Shown in pieces: positions 1,432 to 36,455 of a stretch of DNA of 64,000 nt; within the stretch, counting starts at the first letter, position 1; each line of letters opens with the position of its first letter. The stretch is from Cloeon dipterum (lineage: Eukaryota; Arthropoda; Insecta; Ephemeroptera; Baetidae): assembly GCF_949628265.1 (NCBI RefSeq), contig NC_088790.1, forward strand, positions 8,312,545 to 8,376,544. The letters are read 5' to 3'. Under the pieces are notes generated by a model that saw only the letters and a program-made list of their open reading frames with translations, had not been told where the DNA came from and did not search any database. Both the position numbers and the translations under genes were made by a program.

Positions 1432-2013
1432 TTTGCAGCCCTCTCCGACACATAGGGCCCCGTCGATGTGCAAAATTTCGCCAATTCAAACGTCACAATT
1501 GAGAATGAACTTTTCCCTCCAGCTGGGGCTCTGATTGATAAACATCCGTCAAAGCAGCACCACCAGCGCCACTCTCCGTGCAAGTATTAGCAGGAAACCC
1601 CGTAAGGTTAGCATTGTCTGCGAATGTGGCCGCAGCGGGCAGCACCGTTTGCGCGTCGTAAACACAGTACGCATGCGTCGCCTACTAATGGATAGTACGA
1701 AAACGTAGCACGGCAAAGCGAAAACCAGATGGAGCTCGAATCAATGAACTTAAAAATGGATGACAAGCTGCTTGAGCAGCACGTCGCACAGGTTGCGCGC
1801 CACTAGCGCTAAACAAAGACGCAGCGGTTAGCGCTATAATCAAAATCATAAAATCAACACACGGCGCCGAACAAATTTTGGTTGAATCGCGCTCCCACAC
1901 AACGATAATTTGCGGTGAAGATTGCTGTGCTGTTATTTCAAGAATTCAGTTCTTCCTGCCATAGAGAATTTAGCGTAATGTCCTGAGAATTGGTCTGATT
2001 ACTCTGATTCATA
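1432..2013. promoter_or_regulatory. Shared upstream region of RNF168-like and Tpr-1 genes
   Basis: This stretch of about 580 bp separates two divergent start codons (1431 on minus, 2014 on plus). It holds no supported exon and must contain both 5' UTRs and both promoters. I see no clear TATA box that would decide a start. Calling it a bidirectional promoter is inference from the geometry alone. Confidence 0.5.
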
Positions 2014-5000
2014 ATGGACCCGAAGAAAGACCAAGAACAAGAGGTTGCGGTGTCGGACGACGACGGGCCTGAACAGGAGGACGCCGAATCTGAGCCACAG
2101 AACCCTGAAGACGATGGTTCAGATTACGATGACGATGATGATGACGACGTTGAGCAAGTGGAAGATGAGGAAGACGACACAGAGGAGAGATATTCGGCAC
2201 GGGCTCAGCCACCTTCTCGAAGTCGCAGTCCGATTGAGGTCGAGGTTCTTAGCAGCGATGATGAGGAAGAGCCGCCTGCACAGGCGTCTTCGCAAACTGC
2301 CCGAAGCAGTTCCCCTAAAGATTTAGAGCAGTCGTCTCAGATGACCGAGGAAGAGGATCCCACTGACGAGGATGAAGATGAAGAAGAGGAGATGCAGCAA
2401 GAAGTCTACGAGTCGTACGAGGAGTCTGCGGCTTCTGATGAGGAACAAAGCGAGGAGGAAAATCGCCTTCATATTTCTGAGCAAGATAGAGAAGAGCCAG
2501 GTTCGCCTGAAAAAAACGAAGAGGTCGAGGAAATGGAAAGCGAGCAAAAAGAGCCTGAATCTGACGTTGACTACCAGTTCTCCAAACCCTTTGAGCCCAC
2601 AGAACCGCTTGACTTGCCTGTGATGGATCCGCTGACTCAATACTTAATGGACAGCGTTGAAGAACTCAAGGTGTTACCTGATTACGTACTCACCAAGCTG
2701 ACAAATATTTGGGCTTCCAAGGATAGAGAGTTGAAAAACCTTAGAGAACAATTGTCAGGTTGGTTTCAAACAATTTGTACATTCATATATTTCTTTATTG
2801 CTCTATTTTTTATTTTACAGTTAACAGTGAGGAAGCTTCAACCTCAAGGATTGCAGACTTGGAAGAAACCCTTCAGTCAGAAGTAGCACCAGTGGAGCAA
2901 ACCGTGGAAGCCCTTAATGATGCGCTTCTGAAGTGAGCATTTTAATTTCCTTCACAACATATTTCCACTTAACATTTGTTTGCAGGAAACACAGAGAGTT
3001 GAAAATCTTGCACTTGCAAAGAGATGGCATCCAGTTGAGGGAGAAAGAGTTGTTGAGGCAGCTTAGATGCAAAGATGAGGAAGTGCAACGAATTGTCTCT
3101 GAAAACGCGAGCTTGAGTGCCCAACTTAACAGTGCGATTACTTCAAAGTGTGATGCTCTTTTGAAGATGCAGAATATCGAAGGAAGAGAAATCCAATTGA
3201 ACAACAAGTGAGTGATTATCTAGATTTCACAATGTTCAATCTATTTATTGTCTTGCTAAGGGAATGGAGACTGGACCAAGAAAACGCCTCATATAGATCC
3301 AACTTAAAAAATATGACTGAAAAGCTGGACTTGCATACTCGTGAATTGACCCAATTGAAGCACGAGACCTCTGTCAAGATAACTGACTTGGAAATTCAAC
3401 TGAGAGAATCTAAAAAAGAGGTGAATAATTGTTACTGATAAAGTGTTGCTCAATTTAACCATGAATAAAATTATAGGCTGAAGAGTCGGAGAAACTTGCC
3501 TCATACCTAAAAGAGGCACTAGCGCAAAAGGAGCGCAAAGTGGAAAATCTCCAAGAAAAGCTTAGGGATGTCAGAGACGCTGAAATTTCTTTGCAGGAGG
3601 CCCACAATCAAGAGATTCAAGCCAAGACCAGAATGGCAAAGTTATATGAGGGTAAATAATTATGTGCTCCCGACCTTCATATTTAACAAAACATAATGTT
3701 GAACAGAGCAAACTTCTGATTCCGACAAAATCATCACCGAGTACATCGCCACAATAAAAGATCTACAGAGCACTGTGAAGGAAGCTGTTGAGAAATGCGG
3801 AGAGCTGGAAACCAGGGCTGAGACTGAAAAAGCTAGTTACGAACAAGAAATCAGCCAGAAGAATAAGATGATTTTTGAAATGCGTGATGAGTTGAAACGT
3901 GCCAACGAGCTGATTGAGCAGCTGAAAGAGGCTGAGATGGAGGAGCAAGTGTCATCAATCGCGCCGTCTGCCTCAACAGCTAGGCACATCATAAACTCAA
4001 AGCTCTCCTTCACTGAAATCTACAACATGTACAAGACCAAGGAGAATGAGCTTGCCCTTGCCAGTGCGGAGATTGAGCACTTGAAGGAAACAATGGAGTT
4101 AGTTGTACGAGAGGTAAGCATTTGTATTTATCTTCAGATTTAATGGCAAAATCAAATTTTGACCTGAAGGATTTGGTGTCGGATGGTTCAAACAAGACCA
4201 GTAACACGGCTACTTACTTAACTTTTTTCACTAAATCAGTAATGGGTTGTAACAAATATTTAACAAATAATTAGTCAAATGACACATCAATTTCATCTAG
4301 TTTTGGGCAGGGGGAACTCTGAGATCGCGGCTACAGGGTTGGGAAATCTGGTGTTCAAACTTCATGCCGCAATTTAGAGTTTATTTGAATTATAATTATT
4401 ACTCTGCACAACTGCTTGGAATGAAATTTAGTTTATCTTTACTCTCAGAAATTACAGTACATTATTACATCAATTAATTGGAAAATAAATTTGTAATTTA
4501 ATTAGAATATCTGATTAAAGACAATTTGGAATCGAGAATTCTGGAACTTATTTGGGAAACTTAATTTTATGCTCATTTTCATATCTACAGGTCGAGGAAA
4601 AGGCTCCAATCATCAGCAAGGACAAAGAAATTCTGAACATGACGCAGGCAGAAAATGAGAGAATCCTGGGTGATTATGACAAGGTGGCCAAAGAACTGGT
4701 GCTTGCCAAAGAAGAAACCCGACAGATCAGGCAAAATGCCGGTCTGTACAAGAGAGACAATGAGCGAAAGGATGTCCAAATTGCTGACTTGAGCAAGCAG
4801 GTGGGATTTATATTTTTTTATATTAGAATTGTAGAATTTAACTGTTGAATGTTAGGTTGTGGTGCTTCTTCGCGAAGTCGAGGCTCTAACATCAAGGCGG
4901 CCAATGATGCGTGCGAACCTCAATCAAAGCTTTGACGTCTATGCGAGCATGACTCCAAGTCAAATGCTGACTCAGCGTCTTGTACCGTTCAGAGACATCG

Positions 5001-18879: not shown

Positions 18880-21800
18880 ATGGATAGCGGTTTAAAAGAG
18901 CCTGCACCCTCTGATGATGGTTAGTTTGTTCATCATACCTCTCAATATTTTCGTCAAATTTAATGTGAATTACAATAATTTTATAGCTCAACAGCAATCT
19001 GACGATGGGAAGGCAAATTCAGAAGAAGATGAGAAGATTGTCGCCTTGCGCAACCACATCGAATATCTCTTAGAGAGAAACGTTGCTGGACAAAAAGATT
19101 ATGAAAAACTGATCAAGCAGTATAAAAGGTTTAATAACACATACAAAACGAAATTGTGTCATAAAAGCCCACATTAATTTACAGCCGTGAGCAAGAACTT
19201 AATTCTGCCAATGCAAAGATGTGCGAGGCATTATTTCAAGTTGCAACATTGACCGCACAATTGCATGTGAAAGAAGATGCGGTGAAAAACCTGAAGACAG
19301 ATGTTGATGTGTTGGGAAAGCAATTGGCTGAGGCCTCGAGAGCCAAAAACAATGCATTGCTGAAGCTGGACAATATTGCTAGTAGAGAGGAGACTTTTGA
19401 GAACAAGTACACAGATAAAGCACTGTTTGAAATCTTAAATTATCAATTCAATTACAGGAAAAGAATGATGGAGCAAGAAATTGACTTGCTCCGAGGACAG
19501 ATTCTCAGTTTTGAGCAAAGAGTTGAGCGCCAGGAGGCTGAGCTTGTTGACGCGACTTCGTCCTCAAGAGTTGTGCAACTTGAGAGTCAGCTACAGAGAA
19601 TGATTGATGAGGTGAATCTTGTCAATTCATTCCCTCTGGATTGGATTTAAATTTTTTGGGTACTTTCAAGCTTGCCGCTCGCGACCAAACTGCTCTCAGG
19701 CTTCGCAACCAATTGAAAGAAGAACAGTCCAAAGTGTCCAAACTCGAGGAAAGACATAAGTTGGACCAAACCAAGGAGTCCCAACTGCAGCTTATTCACA
19801 AGAAAGAGCTTGAGTCTCAAATCAATTTATCTCGTATTTCTCAAGGTGAATTGTTACATTCAACAGTGATTTGCTTAACTTATTTGTTTTTGTTTATTAT
19901 AGAGAGATTTGAAGAAAATGAGAAGAAGTTGCATGAGTTTAGCGGCCTTATAAAGAAACTGGAAGCTGAGCTTGAAATAAAATCAATACCTGGAGATGCT
20001 GAGAGGAAAGCTCTGGAGGAAATTAACAGGCTAAATCAAGAACTGGAGAACAAAGACAACAAAATTCAGAATTTGGAACTCTCTGTATCACAACTTGAGA
20101 TTGAACTGGAGCAGATCAAGAAAGGTTGGTTACTGGGTCTTTTTTAAAATAGGTTGTGATTAGAATATTGTGTATTTGCAGACAACCTTGACCAATATAT
20201 TCAGAAGTTGTTCCCTTCCGCCTCTATCGTCAGCCAGCATTTGCAGGGTGATTTGAGCCTCTCCCAACTTTATGAGAAGTATTCTGCTGTGCTTGAGGAA
20301 TTTAACACAACCAAATACGAAAGAGACATGCTGAGAGTCAAGTTCAATGGCCTCACAGATGACGTTAGTATTTTCTTAAGTTCCCTTACCAAATTTCACT
20401 GGCGAATTATCTAGCTGACAGTCAAGGTTGACGCGTTGCATGAGTGCAAGAAGAAGCAGGCGGCAGCAGAACAACAAGTGCAGAGGCTCATGAATGAGAA
20501 CAAGAAGCTAATGATCGAGTACGAAAACATGAAGCAGTCGGCCAAAGAATCAGCGCGCAGCGTGGCCCAGCACTTGATTGATAAAAGCCAGCTTAAGCAG
20601 CAGAATGATGACCTGCGCAAGCAGGTCATACGCCTGGTGCAGGAAATTGCTGTCTTGAAGTCAGGTGAAGAAAGTCAGCTGACTGACGAGGACCATCTCG
20701 TGCTGTTCAGGGACATTGATGAGCTGCAGCACAAGAATATCGAGCTGCTGTCCCTGGTGCGAGAGCTGCAGACGCGGGCCGAGGCAGCTGAGAAGGAGAT
20801 GGAGAACGTTGAGAAAGTGGCCAGTTGCAATGAGCGCCTGGATGAGCTGGTTGAGCAGGTGAATTAATTTAAAAATTGTTTTCTTTGCAGTATTTATTAG
20901 AGGTTTTAATGACTTAATTCTCGATTATATAAATAAACATTAGGGTAAATTTTTGCGAATCATAAAGTATTAATTCATTATAAGCGACAAAAATATGAAA
21001 TAAATAAATAAAAGGTCATGGTCAAAGTTAAACTAAACAATTAAAATTGTGATAATTGAAATTAGATTAAAACCGCACTGCTTTTAATTTTAATTTGCAT
21101 ACCGCTTTAGCAAGTGCTACCCATGCCCAGCCATATATTTATTGAATTTAAAGAAATTTAAATTCTCAAATTAGCAAGACTTAGACGTTTCCTCTATAAA
21201 TTATCACTTTTCTCTCAAGCAATTAATAATGTCGCTAATTTAAATACAATGAAAGGATTGTACCTAAAATTCTAACTAGAGCATCTTTAACGAAAAACTA
21301 TCATACAGGTGAAACGCTACCAGGAGCGGGAAGCATCGCACTCAGAAATGATGCAGCTGCTCATCCGGCAGCGGGACCACTTTGAGGAGATGTCCAAGAG
21401 TGCGATCCGAGCGGCCGAGGAGAAGGTGCAGCAGATGAGAATGAGCCTTACCCCAGTCAAGGGCTCAGAGCCCATGGACGTGGCTGCCTCGCCTGCACCG
21501 CAGCAGCCAGAGCAGCGTGTCCTTTCGCCGCAGGTATCCTCACCAAGACTGCAGGGACAGCAGCAGAGGCCGCAGTCTCCTCAGATGTCAATGCAGAGGG
21601 CAAATAGACCGCGCTTCTCACCGTACACCGCTGGTGGGGTGCCCCCGTCGAAGGCTTACGTGGACGCCCTGCAGCTGCGCTACAAGAAGTGCCAGGACGA
21701 GCTGGAGAGTTCCAACAAGGCTTTCGCAGAGTATCGGGAGAACTCGAAAAAGAACATGGACATGGTGATCAACCAGCTGGAGGAGCTGCGCAACGAAAAC

Positions 21801-24800
21801 CTGGACATCAAAATGGAGCGGTCAGAGCTGAAGGCGCTGTGCGAGACGGGCAAGGACAAGCTGGCCAGCATGAAAAACATTATGGAGGGGCTGCAGAGGC
21901 AACTGGATGCCGTGCAGAAGATGCGTGACATCCAGGATGTGATCATCGGCAAGCATGAAAAGAACACAATCGAGCTGAACAAGGAGATAGTGAAGACTTA
22001 CGCCAAGCTGTCCAACGTGGAGGGACTGCTCGAGCGGGCCAACGCAGAAATCCGCAGACTGCGGGTCAGTGAGAGCTCTGCCAGGCATGAGTGTGAGTCG
22101 CTGAGAGCGTCCTCCTCCAGCCAGAATCTAGTGTTCCTCGGTGCTCAAGAGCTGAAGGCCGCGAGACAGCGGGCCGACGCAGAGGACAGTCTGATCCTTT
22201 CCAACCAGCTGCAGGCGGTGATGAATGAGAACAAAGAGCTGAAACAGCAACTTGAGTCGGGTCAAGTCCATCTCAAGGACGAAATCAACCGTCTGGAGGC
22301 GTGTCTCAACAAAGAACGTGCTCTGCTGGCCGGGGCAGTGGCCGAGAAGGAGACGGCCGTGTCTGAGTGTGCCCGCGCTGCAGAGCTGCTCTCGCAAGCG
22401 CAGCGGGACGTGATGGTTCTGCGCACCAACAAGAATCCAAGCGCCAGCACCGAGGTGCAGACAGAGAACCAGTTTGACTACGAGCACCAAATTGGCCAGC
22501 TTGAGGAGGAGCTGCTTGCCGCAAATGCGCGCAACGTGGAGGTCAAAGCCAAATACGAGGAGCTGACCGAGACGCGCGCTCGCGACGAGGATGTAATTGC
22601 TCAGCTGAAGAAACTTAATGATGAGCTGAAGCATGCTATCGACGTGAGCAAGGAGGAGTTTGAAGCGGAAAAGAACGCTGCCAAGCAGAAGATAGACTCA
22701 CTCGAAGGCGATTTATCCGTCGCTAAGGAGCAGCTGACGGTCGCTAAAGAGCAGCTGTGCAGGGCTGAGAAGCAAATTGACTCGCTGCGGGCTGAGGTGG
22801 CAAATGCGGGCCAGCGGCAGGCGGTGGCCATCGTCGGGCAGGAGAAAGAGGAGGCCATCAGGAATCTGAAGAAGGAGTTGGCGGCCATGAAGGAGAAGCA
22901 AGAGCGGGGCGAGGAGAGTCTCGAAAGAGAGAAGGAGCAGCACAAGCTTGACCTGCAGGCGCTGTCCATCACCAGGAAGCAGCTAGTGGCATTAGAGAAG
23001 ACGTCCTTGGAACTGAAGGAGCGAATCTCCAGCCTCGAATTCGAGGTACAAAAGGCCAAGAGTGACCTGGAGAACGCCAGACTGACGGCCAACGTCGTTT
23101 CCGGAGACCAATCCGATGAGCTTAGGGAGCAGAACCGAATTCTGTACCAACAGCTGGAGCAGGTGTTGAGCCAGCGGGGCAGAATCGAAAGTTCCCTCGG
23201 CGAGGAAGACGCCCTGCTAGGCGTGCTTAGTGTTTTGCGGCGCGAGCGAGATCTAGCGCAAGCGAAAGCAGACGCCTTCGAGGCCAAGGCGGCCAACATG
23301 CAGATGCAGATTCAGACTCTGAGCGCCAACCACGCTGAGCTGAGTGAAGAACTGGCCAGGCTGAGGGTGGGCGAGTCGAACCAAGTGACGGTGTCTCGGA
23401 GCAAGTATGAAGAGTACCTGCAGATGGCCGAGAACCTGAACGCGCTCACCGATTCGAGCATAGTGCAGAGGAAGAAGAACGACGACCTGGCCAAGGAGAT
23501 CGCCGAGTTAAGGCCTAAGTGGAAGAGCGCGATGGAAGAAATCGAGAGTTTGAAGAACAGGAATAACCTGTTCCAAGAAAAGATCATTGCGGAAGAAGAG
23601 GCTGCGAAGGAACTCATTGAAAAGCACAGGTTGGAGGTTGAGAGGGCAAATCAAGCCGAGTCGAAGATTCGAGAGATGGAGCAGAAACTGAACTCGACTG
23701 GCTCGTCGCAGCAGCAGCTCAGCTCGGAAATTTCCAATCTGAAGGTTCGCATCAACGCTCTAGTCCAGGACATGACAAAAAAGAATGCGGATATCAGGAG
23801 GATGACTTTGGAGAAAAACGCTCTTCAAAAGCAGCTTGAAGCTGCCAAGGGTTTGACTAGCAAGATTTCGGACGAGTTGGCGCAAGAAAAGGCTAATGTT
23901 GCAGCCAAGGCCACGGAAATCGAGCAGCTTAAGACCAGCTTGGAGAACACGAAGAAGGAAATGACCGCCAAAGTGAACGAGCTGACAGGAGTGGTCAACG
24001 AGACTAAAGAATCTCTGGGCAAGAAGGAAAAAGAGTTTGAAGACCTCAACTCAAAGCACGGCAAGGTGCGCGCCATAGCGAAGAAGTACAAAGATCAGTA
24101 TGACGCTCTTGTGGCCGAAAACAAGGACAAAGCTGCTGCAGAGGCCAAAACTGGCGCACAGGAGCAGGCCAAAACCAAAGAGATGGAGGGTAAAATTGCT
24201 GAGATGCAGACCCGACTGGCGGAGGCGGAGACAAAAGCTACAGAAGCGGAGAATGAAGTGCAGAAACTCAGCCAAAACCTGGATAACATCTCTAAACAGG
24301 TAATATCGATTTTTGTTTCAATTGCCTTTATATAAATGAACTTTGTTAGCTGGTGGAAAAGTCGACGCAGCTAGAGCAAGAACAGAAAACCAACGCAGAG
24401 AGGCAGAACCGCACCAAGACGATCATCGCTGCCGCACGTAATAAGATAAAGGATCAAGCAGAATTGATCGCCAAGAAGGATGAAGCGATCAAAGAGAAGC
24501 AGGAAAAGATCTCTCATCTCGAAGGCTCTGCTCAAAATAGCGGTAACCAAGGTATGAATAACGTCACTTTTTGTAGATGAAAATATTAAAATTCATGCTG
24601 CCTAGATCAAGAAGATATGATCAGCCAGCTGAAAAAGGAAAACTGTGAGCTTCGGGCCCAGATGGAGCAGTCAAAGCAGGATTCTAAGGTAACTTTCGTA
24701 TTTCATTCCTTGAATTAGCATTTTAATATCGGTCCGTTCTTACAACAGGCTTCCAAACCAGCTGCTGGTCCGTCAGGTGCCACTCCGTCAGTGAAAATCA

Positions 24801-27389
24801 GACCAATGGCTTCCCAGTCACAGCCTCCAAAAGTCAAGCCTCAAACAGTATGAACTTCGCCAGTAAAATCATTTTTTTTTTTTAATTCGTTGAATATATT
24901 TTTAGTCTGCCGCTGTCATCCCGACAACAAGGGCTGCTCCGACCGCCCGCCTCCGGCCTATGGTAAACACGCCAGCCAGAAACGTGGCCGTCCTCGCGCC
25001 CAGCCAACAGGATCTGCCATCTAACAGCGTCACTCCAATTCAGGGCACGCCACGAACACACTCGACCCCTCCCAGATTGCCCTCCAGAGAGGAACATTCC
25101 AGCGACTCGTCCACCAGCCTCGATGAGTCCGCTGCTCAGTCAACGAGTGCCAACGTGGTGCTAGTGCGTCCCAACGAAGTTTATCCAGCCCCCTTTTCCA
25201 GCCAACCGTCCACTTCAGCTGGCCCGTCTGGGCCACCATCAGCAGGTCCTTCCTTATCCTTGAAGAGAGCCAGAGACACTGAAACTTTGACTATTCAGCC
25301 AGATGAACCTCAGGTTTGACATTATATCCTAAACAAGCCTATTGAAAGTATTATTTTGGTGTGCTCTTTTATTTGGCATTAAATTAGTGTAACAAATTTA
25401 GAACTTGAAAATTACTGACTGGTTACTGATCCATGCAATTTGTAGGCAATGGCACTGGAATATATTTTATTTTCATACTAATCTATGGAATTTACACAGC
25501 AAAAATGTTGATAATTTATTTATTCTTCATTCAGATATGCAGATTATGTAACAAAATCATTTCTGAGAAGATATAAAGACAGCTACACCTATTTTTTAAC
25601 ATTATAATTGTATATCTGATTTCAAAATGTTTTCAATGTTGCTCTAAAAGTAACATTTTTTATATTTAGGCCAAACAATCTTGCACTGAATCAGCGGAAG
25701 AGCTTGTGCCTGAAATGGTTGAGGAGCCAGAGGTTGAGGAGAGACTGGAAGAAGATCCAAATACAGAAGGTGCAGTCGAGGGTGAGGAGAACGAAGAGGC
25801 CATCAACGAAGAACTGGAGGAAATGGCGGTATCTTGGATTGATTTCAATTTGAAAAAAGTAAATCTGATTGATTTTGATCAGCTTCAAGCTGTCGACGGA
25901 GATGACGAAACTGAAGAGAATTTGGAGGAGGAAACTGACGAAACTCCAGGGGAGCCAGCTGTTGATGCCGACGGAGGCAACGCAGAAAATTCTCTAGCTG
26001 GTGGTGTATTCATTGTTATTTGGTCTATCAGTTTCCAACTAATCATAATGTACCCGCAGCTGCGGAGGCTGCTAGCAATGAAGAAGGCCTCCAGGGCGGA
26101 GGAGACGCAGAGCAACCAGCACAAGTTGATCTTGTTCCGCAGGCAGCTCCAGCACGCGCCAACTTCATGCTGGTCAGTCCTTACACTGTGTATCAGTCTG
26201 GTGATGAGTGGTGTGCTGTTCCTGCAAGGACCGCTCTAAGCACACCAAGTGCTGAGAGCGACGATGACTCTCTATCGCTGTCTTCACCTTTTGACATGGA
26301 CCCTTCAAGCTTTTTGCCATCTGATTAGCCAAAATAGCATGGTCGCAGTTTTTCATTTCTCTCTTGTGCTTCTTTTTGGTTTTGGTCTGTAAATATGCAT
26401 GTACGAATTTGCAAGCTTTTCTGTTTCACATTCGCATATGATTTTGCTTTGTTCCCTTCATTAAATTTACTTTACCATTATTCTACGCTATTTTTATTTG
26501 AGCACTGTTTGCTTTTTGTACCGATTCCAGCCGTTGTTGCAACAAGGCTTTGAGGAGGTTGGCGATTTTGGTATCGTCCCCTCAACGCCCACTCTGTTTG
26601 TGCCACAACGCCAAAGTGGTTTTGGTGAAGTAGTTAGCTCACCATACGTTCCTCAGGGTCGTCACTTTACTTTCGCCTCTGAACCTGGTTTTTCCTCACA
26701 GTCGCAATCGGCCTCAGGTGGTCCTTCGGACACCGAGGAGTCGGCCGGCGGACACACAGTGCCTGGCACGCCCATTGCCAGTTCTCCAGACGGTCAGTAA
26801 ATTTACCAGGCGTCATCTGTAGAGCTAATCGCGCTTATTTTAGATGTCGTTCCAAACGTGCATGTTACTGACGCGCAAGCAAGTGACGAAGCGGAAGCTG
26901 GCCCCTTGGAAGCCTCGCAAGAAGCTTCCTCAAGTAGTGACGCCCAAGCTCCTACTGCGACACCGCTCATGCAGCGCAGGATCCCGACGGGAATCCCCAG
27001 CTCCGCCAGAAATCCGAATTATGCGTCCCGTGGATACACCTTCGGGCAGAGACCGCCTCTGTTGTCCAGACCGACGCCCATTGTGTGGGAATTGGGTAAA
27101 TAACGTGCAGCTAACCTTTTATCTCAAATAATCATAGCGTATGTTTATTAATTCTTATTTTGTTGTTTGACCTTTTCAAATCAAGAAAACGTTATCACGC
27201 TTTGCCAACAAATTGCTTTGGAATAAATATCATGCTTTTTTCAATTTCTTGACAGATCCAATGAGACAGGTCCAAGGTGACAGATCCAATGGCAGGGGTG
27301 TACGCAGGGCGTCCGGAGTCGGGGCACAACAGAGAGGGCGAGGAAGAAGTCGTGCTAGGGGCCCCAATCCTTTCCAGCGAGGACATTAA
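18880..27389 (+). CDS. Tpr: Nuclear basket protein Tpr/Megator, copy 2
   Basis: Exons: 18880-18919, 18987-19128, 19185-19406, 19458-19611, 19671-19845, 19903-20124, 20182-20363, 20415-20858, 21309-24299, 24350-24551, 24606-24688, 24749-24847, 24906-25313, 25670-25828, 25883-26000, 26060-26172, 26531-26792, 26844-27095, 27256-27389; 6402 nt, 2133 aa. It shares with copy 1 the order of landmarks (FRDIDELQHKNIELL, VLRRERD, IAKKYKDQYD, GDFGIVPSTPTLF, RPTPIVWE) and several intron positions and phases, but the sequences are well diverged. It lacks copy 1's acidic N-terminal block. Coiled coil runs to about residue 1620; then S/T/P-rich and acidic exons and an RG-rich end. Exon 9 alone covers codons 528-1524 and is visibly more GC-rich than its neighbours. 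A read-through past 26172 gives an alternative C-terminus ending at 26328. The 25829-25882 intron is 54 nt and in frame. A role at the nuclear basket is expected; a split of functions with copy 1 is inference. Confidence 0.92.
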
Positions 27390-28419
27390 TTATGTTCTCG
27401 TCTCAACTCTCAACGTCAGTTTGTGCGACTAATATTGTGTAATATAGAGTAAAACATTTTTAAATACATTACATATAAAATCTGTTAGTTTTATTAAAAT
27501 TTGGAAGAAAAAATTCCAGGAATTTGACAATAGTGATTTCAATAATGATTAATCAGTTTTGAGCTACAGCTTTTCACAAAGATAAGGCACTTTTGTCAGC
27601 TACTGCGCAAAGTCTCTTCTACTATCTCAACATGTCCGAAAGTTCAAAGAAAAGCAAGTGACGCGTTAAAATGAAAAGTTAAATAAATTATATGTTATAG
27701 CTACACACAAGCTGTGTGATGTTTTGTAAAACGACGTATCAAAATTATTTAAGAGCCAAAGTCAGTTAAAAAACAATTCATCAATCTTGCACAAATATTC
27801 GCAAATCTGCAAGGGTGAGTAATACTGACTTTCGTCAAAATCATTGTTCGTAGTGTTTAAATTTTCATCACAGAAATGTTCAATTATATATGCGTTTCTC
27901 TTAAAATCCTAATGGTGTGCGAAACCGTCGCAGTTGCTCGTGAGGAATAGCAATCGATTGCACTGCGTGGCTCTATTTACATCATTTATCGGCGAAAAAG
28001 TGAAATGCATCCAAGTAGTTTATATTAAAGAAGTTAAAATCACTTTCATGACATGTACATACAATAAATTATTTAAAGGTAAGTATTTAAATCATCTGCA
28101 TGTAATCTGCGCAGTGTGAACAGATGTTATTTAATATTAATTGCAAGTAATAGGAGTTGCAGTTGCTTTTAAGTAGTATGAGTTGCGTGAGTTCCTTAGC
28201 ATTCACAGGAACAAGTGGTACACAAACAAATTCGACATCCAAAAATTAACAATGGTGTCAAAGAAAAGATAGGAAAAACTAAAGATATAATTCAATTGGT
28301 ACCCAATCTCTTGCGACGTTAAGTAGTAAACATTTAAAACTTTGCAAACATGTACAGTCAAAAGAAGAATTGATGTGTTCGCAAAAAAAGATAAAGAAAA
28401 ATGCAAGCGCGGCTGTAAA
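27390..28419. other. Intergenic, convergent 3' ends of Tpr-2 and RasGAP
   Basis: AT-rich DNA between two convergent genes. I find no exon with supporting splice signals, no RNA gene and no recognisable repeat here. It must contain both 3' UTRs. Confidence 0.5.
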
Positions 28420-31400
28420 TTAAATTTGTCTGTCGGGCAGTAGGCTGGCTCTCGTCGTTAGAAGCAGGTAGTTGTCGTCGCCAATAGGAGCGTGTCTGCA
28501 AACAGAAACATCAAAGTGATGCGTGTGCGATCTACATGGCCACAGAGACTACTCACATTGTTCCGAGTTGTGTGCGCGACTGCGCTGAGTTGAGATGGCT
28601 TCTGTGCCTCTGCACCAATTTCAGGGTGATTTCTTTAAGGGCGCGTAGCGTGTTGAAGCACGACCTCGCGTCCTCGAACAGAGGCGGCAGTGAAGTATTG
28701 GCAGATATATTGTTCGTTGTACTCTCTGGGTTCTCCCCGGCATATGATTGGTGTTCGCACGCAGCTGCAACAAAATATTCATTGTTAATATCACTTTTGC
28801 CAGCTTGCGATGTATTAATTAAATTTGTATACCGATGGCACATATTTTCTCTTCAATGTCCCAGGAATCGTCTATTCAAAAGTTTAATAATTAATTAACA
28901 TAATTCCAGTTGCAAATCTCATTCATTAATTTAACCTGTGGCGTACTATATTGTGTTGTAATTAACCTACTAATGGTCATATTTAAATTTCTGGTACATC
29001 TTATTGCATTAAAGTTGTTAAATGGCGCAAATTCAATAAAAGATTACGGGAAAAACTTCAAAAGTTCGTGACAAAAGATTTTGCTATATTCAAGTTAAAA
29101 TCCAATTCTGGTCCCTACTGACCTTTCAATGCCTCCAATTTGTTCATGTGGGCAGCAAATAGCGAATGGATTCGCTCAAGCTCCCGGTCTGGATCCAAAC
29201 TGAGCTGCAGACCAGCTCCTTGAAGTCCGCTGGTCACATCTCGACAACCCTCAGCGTCCTCTCTTGTTTGCCTGCAACTGCAAGGAAAGCGTTAGTGACA
29301 AAGTGGCCGTTGATGTGGAACAGCTAGTTGTAGATTGCGATGAGGAAAATAGCAAATACACGTAAATTAAAAACAAAAATTAAGTTTTCATTGGAGCAGT
29401 TATTTGCGAGATTGGAGGTCGATTGGACGCGATTTTTCAGCGTTGAAATTTTTAGGTGGCAGTCATATTTGCTTAAAGTACTTGTTAATAGATGGTGAAA
29501 TTCCAAATTTGAAGCTCGGGAATGGGGGCGTTCCCTATTTTTTCGGTATCTCAAAAATACCCAAAAAACGAATTCTGTAAATGAATTCTAAACTGCAACT
29601 CTTGACTGCATTGAGGTATCACCTTGAAATTTTCACTGCCTAACCTAGTTTTTAATCCTGAACAACTTTTGCATTTACAAAAAATTCGCAGGTCGAAGGT
29701 CAAGGTCACCTTTTGTGACCTTTTTTTGAAAATTCAAATTTAAGGGATGATAGCCCCCTACGATTTTTTTGGAGTTCAGGGCTGAAATGTAGCCCGTGAA
29801 ATTCTGCACAAGTACACCAAGTTTCATAGGTGCAATCGCGATGCTTTTGCTGCAATTTGAATTTGAAGTTTGAAAACCTGCTCGAGGCCGCTTGACCGCG
29901 CATGCACTTTGAGCGGCGAGTTTGCTACTCGTTCTTCAAGTTGATTTTTTTTGCATTTCACTTGCTTAGAAACACCAAGAGGGCCTAGGGTAGACCAAGG
30001 AAGGTCGAAATCGACCTTCAGGGTCTGTCCCTGACGTGACCCTGAGATAAAAAATTTCGAAAATTTCCAATTTCATCGAACTTGGTGTCTTTTTATAGGT
30101 TTTCACCCCTGTACAGCTCAAATATACAGCCAAAATTGCCGAATTATAATCCTGAAACCGGTTCTTGAAGTAATTGTGGTAGCCATTCATCCAGACGTGA
30201 TGTGCAAAATGGTCAAAATTTTAAAATTTTAAATTTATGAAAAGATGCTTCTATTTTGCACACATGAAGTTCATAATATGTGTTGATAATAAAGGATCTT
30301 AATGCTTAATACTATGAAAAAATGGTATTAAATGCACTGGCAAAAAAGCCACTTTTAAAAACCAAAAATTTGTGTTTCCTTTCTTTTTCAAATGAAAAAT
30401 TTTAAACATGTAATTTAATTGTTATTTGCTCTACATAAATCTTGTAACTTTTTTTAAAAAAACAATCGTTAATTTTTAACACTCAATATGAACTTAGTGT
30501 GTACAAAACAGAAGAATCATATCATAAATTAAAGATTTTAAAATTTTGACCATTTTGCACATCACGTCTGGATGAATGGCTACCACAATTACTTCAAGAA
30601 CCGGTTTCAGGATTATAATTCGGCAATTTTGGCTGTATATTTGAGCTGTACAGGGGTGAAAACCTATAAAAAGACACCAAGTTCGATGAAATTGGAAATT
30701 TTCGAAATTTTTTATCTCAGGGTCACGTCAGGGACAGACCCTGAAGGTCGATTTCGACCTTCCTTGGTCTACCCTAGGCCCTCTTGGTGTTTCTAAGCAA
30801 GTGAAATGCGAAAAAAATCAACTTGAAGAACGAGTAGCAAACTCGCCGCTCAAAGTGCATGCGCGGTAAAGCGGCCTCGAGCAGGTTTTCAAACTTCAAA
30901 TTCAAATTGCAGCAAAAGTATCGCGATTGCACCTATGAAACTTGGTGTACTTGTGCAGAATTTCACGGGCTACATTTCAGCCCTGAACTCCAAAAAAATC
31001 GTAGGGGGCTATCATCCCTTAATTTTGAATTTTCAAAAAAAGGTCACAAAAGGTGACCTTGACCTTCGACCTGCGAATTTTTTGTAAATACAAAAGTTGT
31101 TCAGGATTAAAAACTAGGTTAGGCAGTGAAAATTTCAAGGTGATACCTCAACGCAGTCAAGAATTGCAGTTTAGAATTCATTTACAGAATTCGTTTTTTG
31201 GGTATTTTTGAGATACCCAAAAAATAGGGAACGCCCCTATTCCCGAGCTTCAAATTTGGAATTTCACCTTCTATTAACAAGTACTTTAAGAAAATATGAC
31301 TGCCACATAAAAATTTCAACGCTGAAAAATCGCGTCCAATCGACCTCCAATCTCGCAAATAACTGCTCATTGTTTTTTTAACTTAAAACATTATGTCTCC

Positions 31401-34400
31401 TACCATGAGCTCTTAACAATTTTAAACAATTTCCAATTATTTTCTACTTTATATAAAAGACGTTTTTCTGGTTAAGGAGTGACTTTATCTCGCAATAGTT
31501 AGTTAAAAAAATTATGAAAAAATATTTTTTTATTTATGTGTATTTGCTATTTCATTATTGCAATCGTTAAAGGTGTTTCGCAGCTTACCAGAGCCAGTTG
31601 CTGTTTAAGTATGCAGCGGGATGGTAGTGCTTCAGCCTCTGTTTATTTGTTTGGCAGATCTTGGTAAGCAGATCAACCCATTCCTTCTCAGCCACGCAGT
31701 TGGAAGCCTGCATGTCAAGAGAGAATCAAGACACAGATTTATTAAATGATGATTTGACCTACCTGGACGTAAAGGGCTCGACCGTTTGGTTGCACGATTT
31801 GGAACATGTTTTTCTTCTTGAAGGAGTCCTCTTGAAGGCGTTCCACCGCCAAAATATCCGATAAGGGAATGCAGAACAAGGGTGGCTCTCCTTTATTAGA
31901 AAAGGATTGTGGAACAATGTAATTTTATTGATAGTACAATTACCTTTCTTTTCTGAGTAACTCAGGTCCTGAGTTGTGAGTTTGAAAAATCTTTTTTTGA
32001 AGTTCTTCCTTCCAAATTTCTTCCTCCCTTGAGCACGTTTGATGAGCATTCTGTTTGATACATTTTTAATTTAGAATGCATCATTATCTACCACGCAATG
32101 ACAAGAAACTAACTATCAGCGGTTAGTGCGATTGTTTCAATTTTTTATACCAGATTTTTTTAACTCTAGGAACTCTAGCAAAGCAATTTGGCTTATAGAA
32201 TACTCACTTGTTAGTCCTATCCACTTAGCAAAGAGTTAAAACACACAAAAATTTGAAAATTTGAAAATTTTTAGCTCAAACCATCAAGCTTTTGAACTTA
32301 CCCTTCCTTCAACATTACTGGCTCAGCCATGACATGCTTGTCAGGGTTGGATGAGGCAGAAATTATTTCTAGAAACTGCAGACAAACAGTTAGAAACTTT
32401 TGACACTAATTAGCTTAGAATTATTCACCTGTCGCACCGCCTTGATGTGGTCTTCAGTGTAGCAGAGCGAATGCACTGGCTGCATGTAGTCCTCTTTCAC
32501 TGTCTGACGCTCCTTGCAGCTGACCAGGTTACCCAAGCTCTGCACGGTTTTAGAAATCAGCGTCAGAGTTCGGTGGGTTTGAGCATCCTGCGGAGGCGTA
32601 AAATTTCATGAGAAAATACCGTTAAGACTAAACGCGTTTTCTCACGATTGTTTCCGTTGTGAGATCAAAGAGTCTAGGTCCAAGAATGGCTGGTGCAAAG
32701 AACCGCAGGAAGATGAAGCCTGATATTACTGAGTAGCGCACTTCATTGTTGCCTTTGAAGAAAGAGCACGCGACTTGCTGCAGCTGATGGAATGCTTCGC
32801 ACATCAGAGCTGGGCACTGCAGCGCCGAACTAGTGATGGCTTTGAACACTTGCCTCACATAACCCTGTAGTAAAAATGTGAGATATTAGCAAATTTAATA
32901 GTGAGTTTCCTTGTGTATTTAATTGTTTCAATTCGAAATTTGTTATTAATGGGCTAAAGTATTATTTCATTAACCAAGACAAAATTTTCTCATATTTTAG
33001 TGGGTGCTTCAACAGTTTTATCCCTGTTAATCTGATCCTTGATACATCATATTTTTAAGTAGACATTTCATTGAAATTGCTGCTAAATGAGCGGGAGCAA
33101 AAATAAAGAAGTTAATAAGAAATTATCTTTAAATGATCATCTACATACAGATTGATTCGTGCACTCGGCACTTACCAACAGGTTTTCCAAATTAGCCGCA
33201 GCTTCCGCAGGGTTTTTCAGGCGCACAGGATCAACCTCACATGGTTTCTTTTCGGATAGGACGGCATCAATGACAGGTTTCAAAGTGCTGCGCAGGTAGT
33301 GTGGCCCCGACACCTTCATCAGTTCATCAACCAACTTAGTGGCCAAGGAATTCCCTCGGAATATCGTGTTAGGGTCACTGAAAGTGGCGTGTTAAGACCA
33401 TTGGCGATCAAGGTAAACAACAGCACGCACATCACTCTTGCGGTTTCGTGCGTTGCCAGCACTTTGATGAGTGGCACCAGCTTCTCGTGGTGCATGAAAA
33501 ATCTCACAAGGGGTTGAGCTGCGTCTAGTTTGGCACCAACTATTTCTCCAAGCAAAAATACAGCACTACTTGAGACAGGCTAGAAAAATGATTATTCCAT
33601 TTTAAGAGACGCTGATGAATACAAAAGAATCGATTTACTTGTGCGGTTACGCTGGCCAACAGCAAATCTCTGAGTGAGGAGTAAGCGGCCGAGGGTAAGA
33701 CATGGTCGGCTGTGTAGTGAATGCGGAGGCGGATGGAACCAAGGTCAATGTTTTGTGAGGCGGCAGTCGGCGAGCGTGCTCCTTCCCTTGGGTTCAGAAG
33801 GTACCATATCGGCTTCTGGTCCATCGACAACAGGCCTTGCAGGTTGATTTTGACCTCGCCGAGGAAGGCAGCCTCAGTGGTGCCAGCCGTGTCGTGCCGA
33901 ATGGCGACCTGCAACTCAACTGCTTCAGGACTGTCCCGCAGCTGGTACAACTGGGACGTTGAGGTTGACGCCTTGGACCGCACAGAGGCGCGCAGGTCCT
34001 CTCTGTCAAAGTCAGGAAGCTGTGCATTGGATTTGTGAGATTTTTTCTAAATTGATGACAGTATAGTAACATACATCAAAGAAAAAGCATTCATCGAATA
34101 CAGGACTCGTGGTTTTCTTTTTTATCCTCGACTTTTTTGAAGAAACTCGACCGTTTGAATACAGAAGCGAAACTACAGCGTACGGATCACACGCACCATT
34201 TTTTACACTTAGCTCCGCGCATTCGATTAACCTGTAGACGAGTATTAGTAATTAATGAGGGTATTAAATAATCAATTTCTCCTGTCAACTTGCCTGACGC
34301 TAAGACGGTGCTTTGGTTCGGACGAAGAGTTGTTTGGTACTATTGTCTCAACTTTGAATTCGAGATGGACTTTGCCCTGAAAGCGACAGTGTTAAATTTC

Positions 34401-35858: not shown

Positions 35859-36455
35859 ATGAAAGAAGAGGATGTCCTAACCGCCAAAATGATTGAGTCT
35901 GGAGAACTGAATAGGTTAATTGTTGTTGTTGTTTACTTGCCTATTTCGTGGGAGTGTTATGCATGATACTTAAAATTCTTACATTCTAGAAAAATAATAC
36001 AAATAATGTATGTATCTATGTATGATATTATATTATCATAGCAGAATCACAAAAATTGTCAAATTTCCGCCAGTTTCTTATTTTATTCCAAAATCGTGGT
36101 AGTACATAAAAGATATATGTAATGCTCCGAATGAAATTAAATTTTATTCGGATTTTGTATTCACTTCAGATGGAAAGAGCTTCTTCGTTTGAGGCTTACG
36201 GAATGTGGCTGGAGAGACCAAGTCAAGCTTCTCTGTCGCGACGCAATCAAGCAAGGCAACGTGGAGGAAATGACTGTGGATCAGCTGAATAATGAAGTTA
36301 CTCCGAAAGCCAGACGTAAAAACACTAATCCTCAATATTCAGGCTTTAAATTAAACCATTTTATCGCAGAATTGGTCCCTGATGCTGTGAAAATTGAGCT
36401 GCTGACAAAAATCAAGACCTTCCTGCAAGAGAACACTCTGCAAGAGTCGCAGTGA
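35859..36455 (+). CDS. ENY2: Transcription and mRNA export factor ENY2 (Sus1)
   Basis: Exons 35859-35914, 36170-36315 and 36370-36455; 288 nt, 95 aa, the usual size. Family signatures: IESGELNRWKELLRLRL, TECGWRDQ, TVDQLNNEVTPKARQLVPDA and a C-terminal LLTKIKTFLQ helix. ENY2 is a small helical adaptor of the SAGA deubiquitinase module and of TREX-2, which tethers active genes and mRNA export to the nuclear basket built by Tpr. The second intron is only 54 nt (36316-36369), a multiple of three and without a stop; splicing it restores the conserved R-Q-L-V-P-D join, so I treat it as an intron. If retained it adds 18 residues. Start choice: first in-frame ATG before the conserved helix. Confidence 0.95.

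Follow-up and report, generated by a model that had tools for sequence, protein, structure and literature searches.

A foldback-like palindromic element in a RasGAP intron of Cloeon dipterum and the concerted evolution of the arms in its family

The arms of the Foldback (FB) elements of Drosophila are tandem-repeat arrays, and their target duplication is 9 bp long. Kolobok and Sola3 elements duplicate the tetranucleotide TTAA, and the ends of CMC (Chapaev) elements begin with CAC. TTAA is also the duplication of piggyBac according to the accessible part of a publication in which 7-8 bp are given for the P superfamily and a length limit of <800 bp is used for MITEs (PMC5199201). For Sola2 of Dictyostelium fasciculatum, the available text reports A/T-rich 4-bp duplications of the form AWWT and TIRs of 12-21 bp (PMC3627910). 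The closest precedent for the element analysed here is Galileo, a member of the P superfamily in Drosophila, the comparison concerning mainly its two-TIR copies. In the accessible portions of the work on D. buzzatii, the arms within copies 1 and 2 diverge by 0.0018 and 0.0071, and those between the two copies by 0.067-0.069; in two other copies, located at inversion breakpoints, the arms are dissimilar, with divergences of 0.063 and 0.057, and this was ascribed to ectopic recombination (PMC2775673). For D. mojavensis, a within-copy identity of 98-100% is given in the part of the source at hand, and repair of one TIR from the other as well as conversion were proposed (PMC3573991). Outside of transposons, inverted palindrome arms on willow and mammalian sex chromosomes are conserved via gene conversion, as stated in the available text (PMC7023750).

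Here, an inverted repeat of C. dipterum and the family of copies to which it belongs were analysed computationally. The window, i.e. the whole stretch of DNA under analysis, comprises 64,000 nucleotides of contig NC_088790.1 (positions 8,312,545 to 8,376,544), and unlabelled coordinates refer to it.

The element and its host gene

The inverted repeat at 29394-31368 has a total length of 1,975 nt and is composed of a left arm on the plus strand (29394-30297), a non-palindromic AT-rich loop of 167 nt (30298-30464) and a right arm on the minus strand (30465-31368), each arm being 904 nt long and both being 97% complementary. The element starts with GAGCAGTTATTTGCGAG at 29394, and the reverse complement of this sequence forms its other end at 31368. 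The flanks read ...GTTTTCATTG on the left and ATTGTTTTTT on the right, so that ATTG is present on both sides, at 29390-29393 and 31369-31372. Both the near-perfect palindrome of 1975 bp and the ATTG duplication had been proposed in the original prediction and are confirmed here. For five ORFs in the arms, no Pfam match exceeded a curated cut-off; one weak match (E = 0.07) was treated as chance. The RNA of the element is predicted to fold with an energy of -1607 kcal/mol; of its 921 pairs, 880 join the two arms in register, and the helix continues without a break for at most 336 bp.

The host is a RasGAP gene on the minus strand, in which two of the three stretches tried, 32628-32882 and 33137-33388, match the RasGAP model; the stretch 33319-33576 gave no match to the models. 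The segment 34012-34248 (minus strand) matches the C2 model. The minus-strand intron extends from the GT donor at 31588 to the AG acceptor at 29278 (2,311 nt), and the reading spliced across it matches the full 30-position profile of the BTK motif. These splice sites and model matches bear out the predicted position of the element inside an intron of a RasGAP gene. The Btk-motif exon had been expected next to the element, and the BTK motif is indeed there, but the exon does not merely adjoin the intron: the intron splits the motif within a codon, namely that of the first of the two Cys residues forming the CC pair in ...NWLCCRQTREDAEGC.... From the coordinates, the element is separated from the donor by 220 nt and from the acceptor by 116 nt, and the intron minus the element and one duplication measures 332 nt. 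On one side of the RasGAP gene, long coiled-coil frames on the plus strand (19611-27400) resemble, by eye, the nuclear-pore protein TPR, and on the other side the reading frame 36141-36455 is taken by us, likewise by eye, to resemble ENY2.

The family in the genome and its relation to described elements

For the termini, 190.1 Mb of the genome on 10 contigs, five of them 33-43 Mb long, were searched. The first 31 nt of the element, with at most 3 mismatches, matched at 168 places (85 forward and 83 reverse) and a control pattern at none, so the absence of further copies sharing these ends, which would have spoken against a mobile element, was not observed. A 34-nt loop motif with at most 3 mismatches was found at 59 places in the genome (control 0). 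A 25-nt TTAGG array had no match, in a type of DNA search that may pass over simple repeats. The copies analysed are a part of the family; nine (L098-L106) of 23 further loop-bearing places were read. Full-length copies are 1,905-1,985 bp long, and the ends of family copies start with GAGCAG. The first 40 regions read hold 41 copies having both ends, 35 of which are flanked by a perfect 4-bp target duplication; among the remaining six, three have one mismatch, two fit 5 bp and L040 fits neither. The chance level is given by identical 4-mers at shifted offsets, which occurred in 5 of 820 comparisons. The duplications vary between copies and show a weak T-ANNT-A core in A/T-rich surroundings, the two middle positions not being restricted to A/T. 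The palindrome, the target duplications and the many dispersed copies bear out the predicted mobile element of foldback type.

Several copies deviate from the common structure. The subfamily L098-L105 has the ends GAGCAGTTATTCGCGAGATTGGAGGTCAAT, and a loop variant ending in AAATGG is present in L098-L103 and absent from L104 and L105. In L041 (G000:C2:28977140-28982514), two copies lie 441 bp apart with 0 arm differences in 1,560 columns, different duplications (TGAT vs CGAG) and opposite loop orientations, which suggests a local hop. In L039, an insert at about 1940-3797 has CCCGCACC-rich segments on both sides by eye and is apparently another repeat nested within the palindrome.

Among the family members read, neither an autonomous copy nor a transposase was detected. 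Termini without a nearby second end were read out in L014, L015, L021, L022, L028 and L035 and in the 13 regions L085-L097. Four of these 13 regions (L089, L090, L095 and L097) are full-length copies, and the other single-terminus regions are truncated or deleted copies or run beyond the stretch read (L015, L028). The large copies L039 (3,820 bp) and L040 (2,845 bp) contain inserted DNA. Ten longer frames of L039, L040, L085, L087, L091, L092, L093 and L096 gave no transposase match in Pfam, all frames beyond these ten being judged by eye; the only match above cut-off among the ten was DM9, in a frame adjoining L085 that is taken as a host gene. Six candidates have related ends with a different continuation, and similarity to the family is confined to L079 (1501-1663). 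This is a single diverged end with an identity of about 89% over 163 bp that is not followed by a palindrome, and it may be what is left of a related family. The exact 25-nt element end had 0 matches in viral contigs and 0 in prokaryote contigs.

With inverted repeats that constitute most of the element (904 + 167 + 904 nt) and dispersed insertions with a target duplication, the family fits the foldback-like structural class. Like FB of Drosophila, it has long inverted repeats around a short middle and a predicted foldback, and the same holds for Tetris of D. virilis as far as the available part of its description goes. Unlike FB, only five weak arrays of 1.9-3.3 short units each were detected in a scan of 29300-31500, and the duplication is 4 bp in 35 of 41 copies rather than 9 bp. 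Galileo, in the accessible accounts, likewise has very long inverted repeats, and its arms within a copy can be far more alike; the 4-bp duplication differs, however, from the 7-8 bp that the available text gives for the P superfamily, and, unlike in Galileo, no transposase-bearing copy was detected among those read and the ends start with GAGCAG. The accessible portions of the Galileo literature describe no bracketed tracts, no AU test and no boundary common to homogenisation and breakpoints. The A/T-rich 4-bp duplication is shared with Sola2, and the weak ANNT preference is comparable to the AWWT reported in the text available; this likeness concerns the duplication, whereas arms of 904 nt stand against the TIRs of 12-21 bp given there. 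The varying duplications differ from the TTAA of piggyBac, Kolobok and Sola3, and the GAGCAG ends differ from those of CMC (Chapaev). With MITEs, the family has in common that it is non-coding (in view of the five arm ORFs), with inverted ends, a target duplication and multiple copies, but its full-length copies exceed the length limit as used in the accessible part of the source. Inverted arms kept alike through gene conversion are also known from sex-chromosome palindromes, as far as the available account goes; those are large and lie in non-recombining regions, whereas the present family is dispersed as a transposon, so that the process is replicated at dozens of places. Neither a publication naming this family nor one reporting a matched boundary of homogenisation and breakpoints in a transposon was found in the literature searched, most subscription journals lying outside the search. 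The family is real, is not named in that literature and is of a known kind, and its superfamily assignment stays at the level of foldback-like structure, as no transposase was seen in the part read.

The dispersal of the family also bears on two other ways of regarding the locus. Long inverted repeats are difficult to assemble, and this general difficulty would be the reason to regard the palindrome or the identity of its arms as an artefact of assembly or polishing. Such an artefact is exceedingly improbable, since dozens of copies differ in their flanks, target duplications and deletions and several preserve 22-24 arm differences. The original prediction had named an assembly artefact as a possible objection, and on the assembled sequence the different flanks and the copies' own duplications argue against it. 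Regarding the host gene, a long intronic hairpin RNA is predicted in the RasGAP transcript by the folding model, and it might be retained for a function, as a source of siRNA, as a substrate of ADAR or in the control of RasGAP splicing. The high predicted stability of the hairpin and the distances of the element to donor and acceptor would be in keeping with such a role, which is nevertheless given very little probability here, the element being one among dozens of copies on all five large contigs and nothing having been found to set the copy in the RasGAP intron apart from the others. The element in the intron is probably a passenger that is spliced out.

Concerted evolution of the arms

If the two arms evolved independently, the difference within a copy would be expected to be at least as large as that of same-side arms across copies. 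Over 780 columns in 44 full-length copies, the arms of one copy differed by 1.57% in the mean and 1.28% in the median, whereas the difference between copies was 5.07% for A-A, 5.04% for B-B and 5.10% for A-B comparisons, and none of 10,000 permutations in which arms were re-paired was as low as the observed within-copy divergence. The arms were mutual nearest neighbours in 23 of the 44 copies (ties allowed), and a two-arm cherry was present in the tree for 24. The A/B labels changed 32 times on the tree, 28 of these changes being forced by well-supported branches, which is not fewer than obtained with shuffled labels (mean 29). Constraining the A arms together cost 1,367 log-likelihood units, and their monophyly was rejected (p-AU 2.5e-59). 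The evidence for concerted evolution of the arms in this family is unusually clear. The ratio of within- to between-copy divergence was 0.12-0.53 up to column 760 and 0.71-0.92 beyond.

Among 32 copies, 59 copy-private alleles were present in both arms and 58 in one only; with 44 copies the counts were 79 and 113, respectively. The same private change in both arms almost never results from independent mutation, and many recent changes are not yet shared. Because private alleles of the 44 copies are more often found in one arm than in both, conversion is intermittent. A GC bias of the kind expected of conversion, suggestive with 32 copies (P = 0.006), was not robust with 44 (P = 0.039 for all copies, 0.62 without six divergent copies and 0.07 at a stricter majority) and is not claimed.

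The asymmetric loop could be oriented in all 32 full-length copies first examined and later in all 44, and the loops of the 32 copies aligned as homologous. As one oriented loop is shared by all 44 full-length copies, the palindrome arose once. This weighs on the idea that each subfamily is a fresh palindrome made from a single arm by an error of fold-back replication, and not an old one with converted arms. The clustering of arms by copy, or by group of close copies, would be expected of such an origin; a single orientable asymmetric loop shared by descent, within-copy differences past column 760 that nearly equal those between copies, and the tract-like runs in L056 and L075 described below led to the rejection of a repeated new origin, which we regard as highly improbable. 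It could also be supposed that transposition itself homogenises the arms, by way of a folded single strand or by remaking one arm from the other, and that new copies start with identical arms, as the many copies with near-identical arms (the 23 mutual nearest neighbours) might indicate. However, L057, L065, L073 and L076, which occupy different sites with different duplications, show only 0-2 differences per 1,560 columns from each other, and each preserves 22-24 arm differences in columns 1-780 (30-32 in columns 1-832); L065 and L076 are identical across the 1,560 arm columns, yet have different duplications. Preserved arm differences in columns 1-780 were also counted in L054 and L059 (23 and 24), L060 and L078 (19 and 22) and L072 and L075 (12 and 9). 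Arm differences that survive the move to a new site show that the arms are not homogenised by transposition as such; for these lineages the proposal is largely refuted, and as a general account it is very unlikely.

A tract-like switch is present in L056, which is close to the L057/L065/L073/L076 group. At nine consecutive diagnostic sites (413-767), its arm B is in the A state, and this tract is bracketed by preserved differences at 278 and 777; differences are preserved in 137-278 (save 233) and from 777 on, and isolated switches outside the tract occur at 91 and 233. Inside the run, a change at 637 occurs in just one of the 88 arms, an arm of L056, and hence arose later than the run. In L075, a three-site run at 691-754 is switched. 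In these groups, the A and B arms are still on the same sides of the loop, which is most simply read as exchange without crossover. Gene conversion fits the homogenisation of the arms, including the L056 tract. A third copy could have been the donor of the tract, and we infer that the donor was the other arm of the same copy.

Taken together, the family is likely to be a non-autonomous foldback-like DNA transposon with a palindrome of single origin and with arms that are homogenised by conversion after insertion. The near-complete palindrome would be of the cut-and-paste type and mobilised by a transposase supplied elsewhere, both of which are presumed. Insertion generates 4-bp duplications at A/T-rich sites with a weak T-ANNT-A core, and at transposition the palindrome is copied faithfully. 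Subsequently, gene conversion within a copy would make its arms evolve in concert as far as about arm position 760, with the loop keeping its orientation.

For the copy in the window, 12 arm differences were counted over 780 columns, all of them in columns 62-559, and two more (829, 832) are located near the loop. Its nearest relative among the 44 copies analysed, L052, is 2.76% away, the between-copy median being 5.3%; two other pairs of copies among the 44 share identical arms. The near-perfect arms had been read as a mark of a young element. As the arms are homogenised in the family, their identity is no sign that this copy is young, and the distance to L052 does not favour that reading either. 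The intact duplication allows a fairly recent insertion, without proving it.

The homogenisation boundary and a possible hairpin-associated breakage

Breakpoints were mapped in 21 broken copies, the copies with inserts (L039, L040) and those partly read (L015, L028) being excluded. Two breakpoints beyond arm position 905 (L046, L047) were left out, those of L035 and L092 were counted once because the neighbouring DNA is shared, and those at 802, 804 and 828 were converted by hand from the far end; 29 breakpoints remained, and their coordinates may vary by some bases with the reference copy used. Twelve of the 29, from 11 copies, fall into arm positions 742-780, which correspond to 30135-30173 in the left arm of the window copy and, mirrored, to 30589-30627 in its right arm, and which also contain the boundary of arm homogenisation. 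The width of 39 bp was chosen post hoc, but in the simulation every draw is represented by its densest 39-bp interval: in 20,000 uniform draws, the most breakpoints in any such interval were 10 (mean 4.5). In the deletion copy L021, arm positions 1-763 are followed, about 769 nt inward from the matched end, by the terminal 6 bp of the opposite end and the 4-bp duplication AAGT, a structure as expected of an internal deletion sparing the far end.

We propose, tentatively and as a possibility only, that the element breaks itself at a fixed place: DNA of the folded arms might be cut close to where the well-paired stem ends on the inside (arm 742-780), after which outward copying of the other arm would homogenise the stem and end joining would delete the apex or one arm. 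Conversion and deletions would then both start from breaks near the hairpin apex. If this is true, a single structure-driven break point accounts for the end of homogenisation near 760, for the inner limit of the L056 tract, which lies between columns 767 and 777, for the loopless palindromes L045 and L086 and for the half elements.

As for the host gene, every transcript that is still unspliced would be expected to contain a hairpin of about 900 bp. The match of the two ends is often taken to indicate how old and how active an inverted-repeat transposon is; here this clock is reset by conversion. Moreover, with dozens of dispersed copies carrying one loop, a single genome shows how long the tracts at long palindromes are, where breaks occur and how they are repaired, and, if the proposed breakage holds, the family would be a natural and replicated assay of hairpin-induced breakage and repair.
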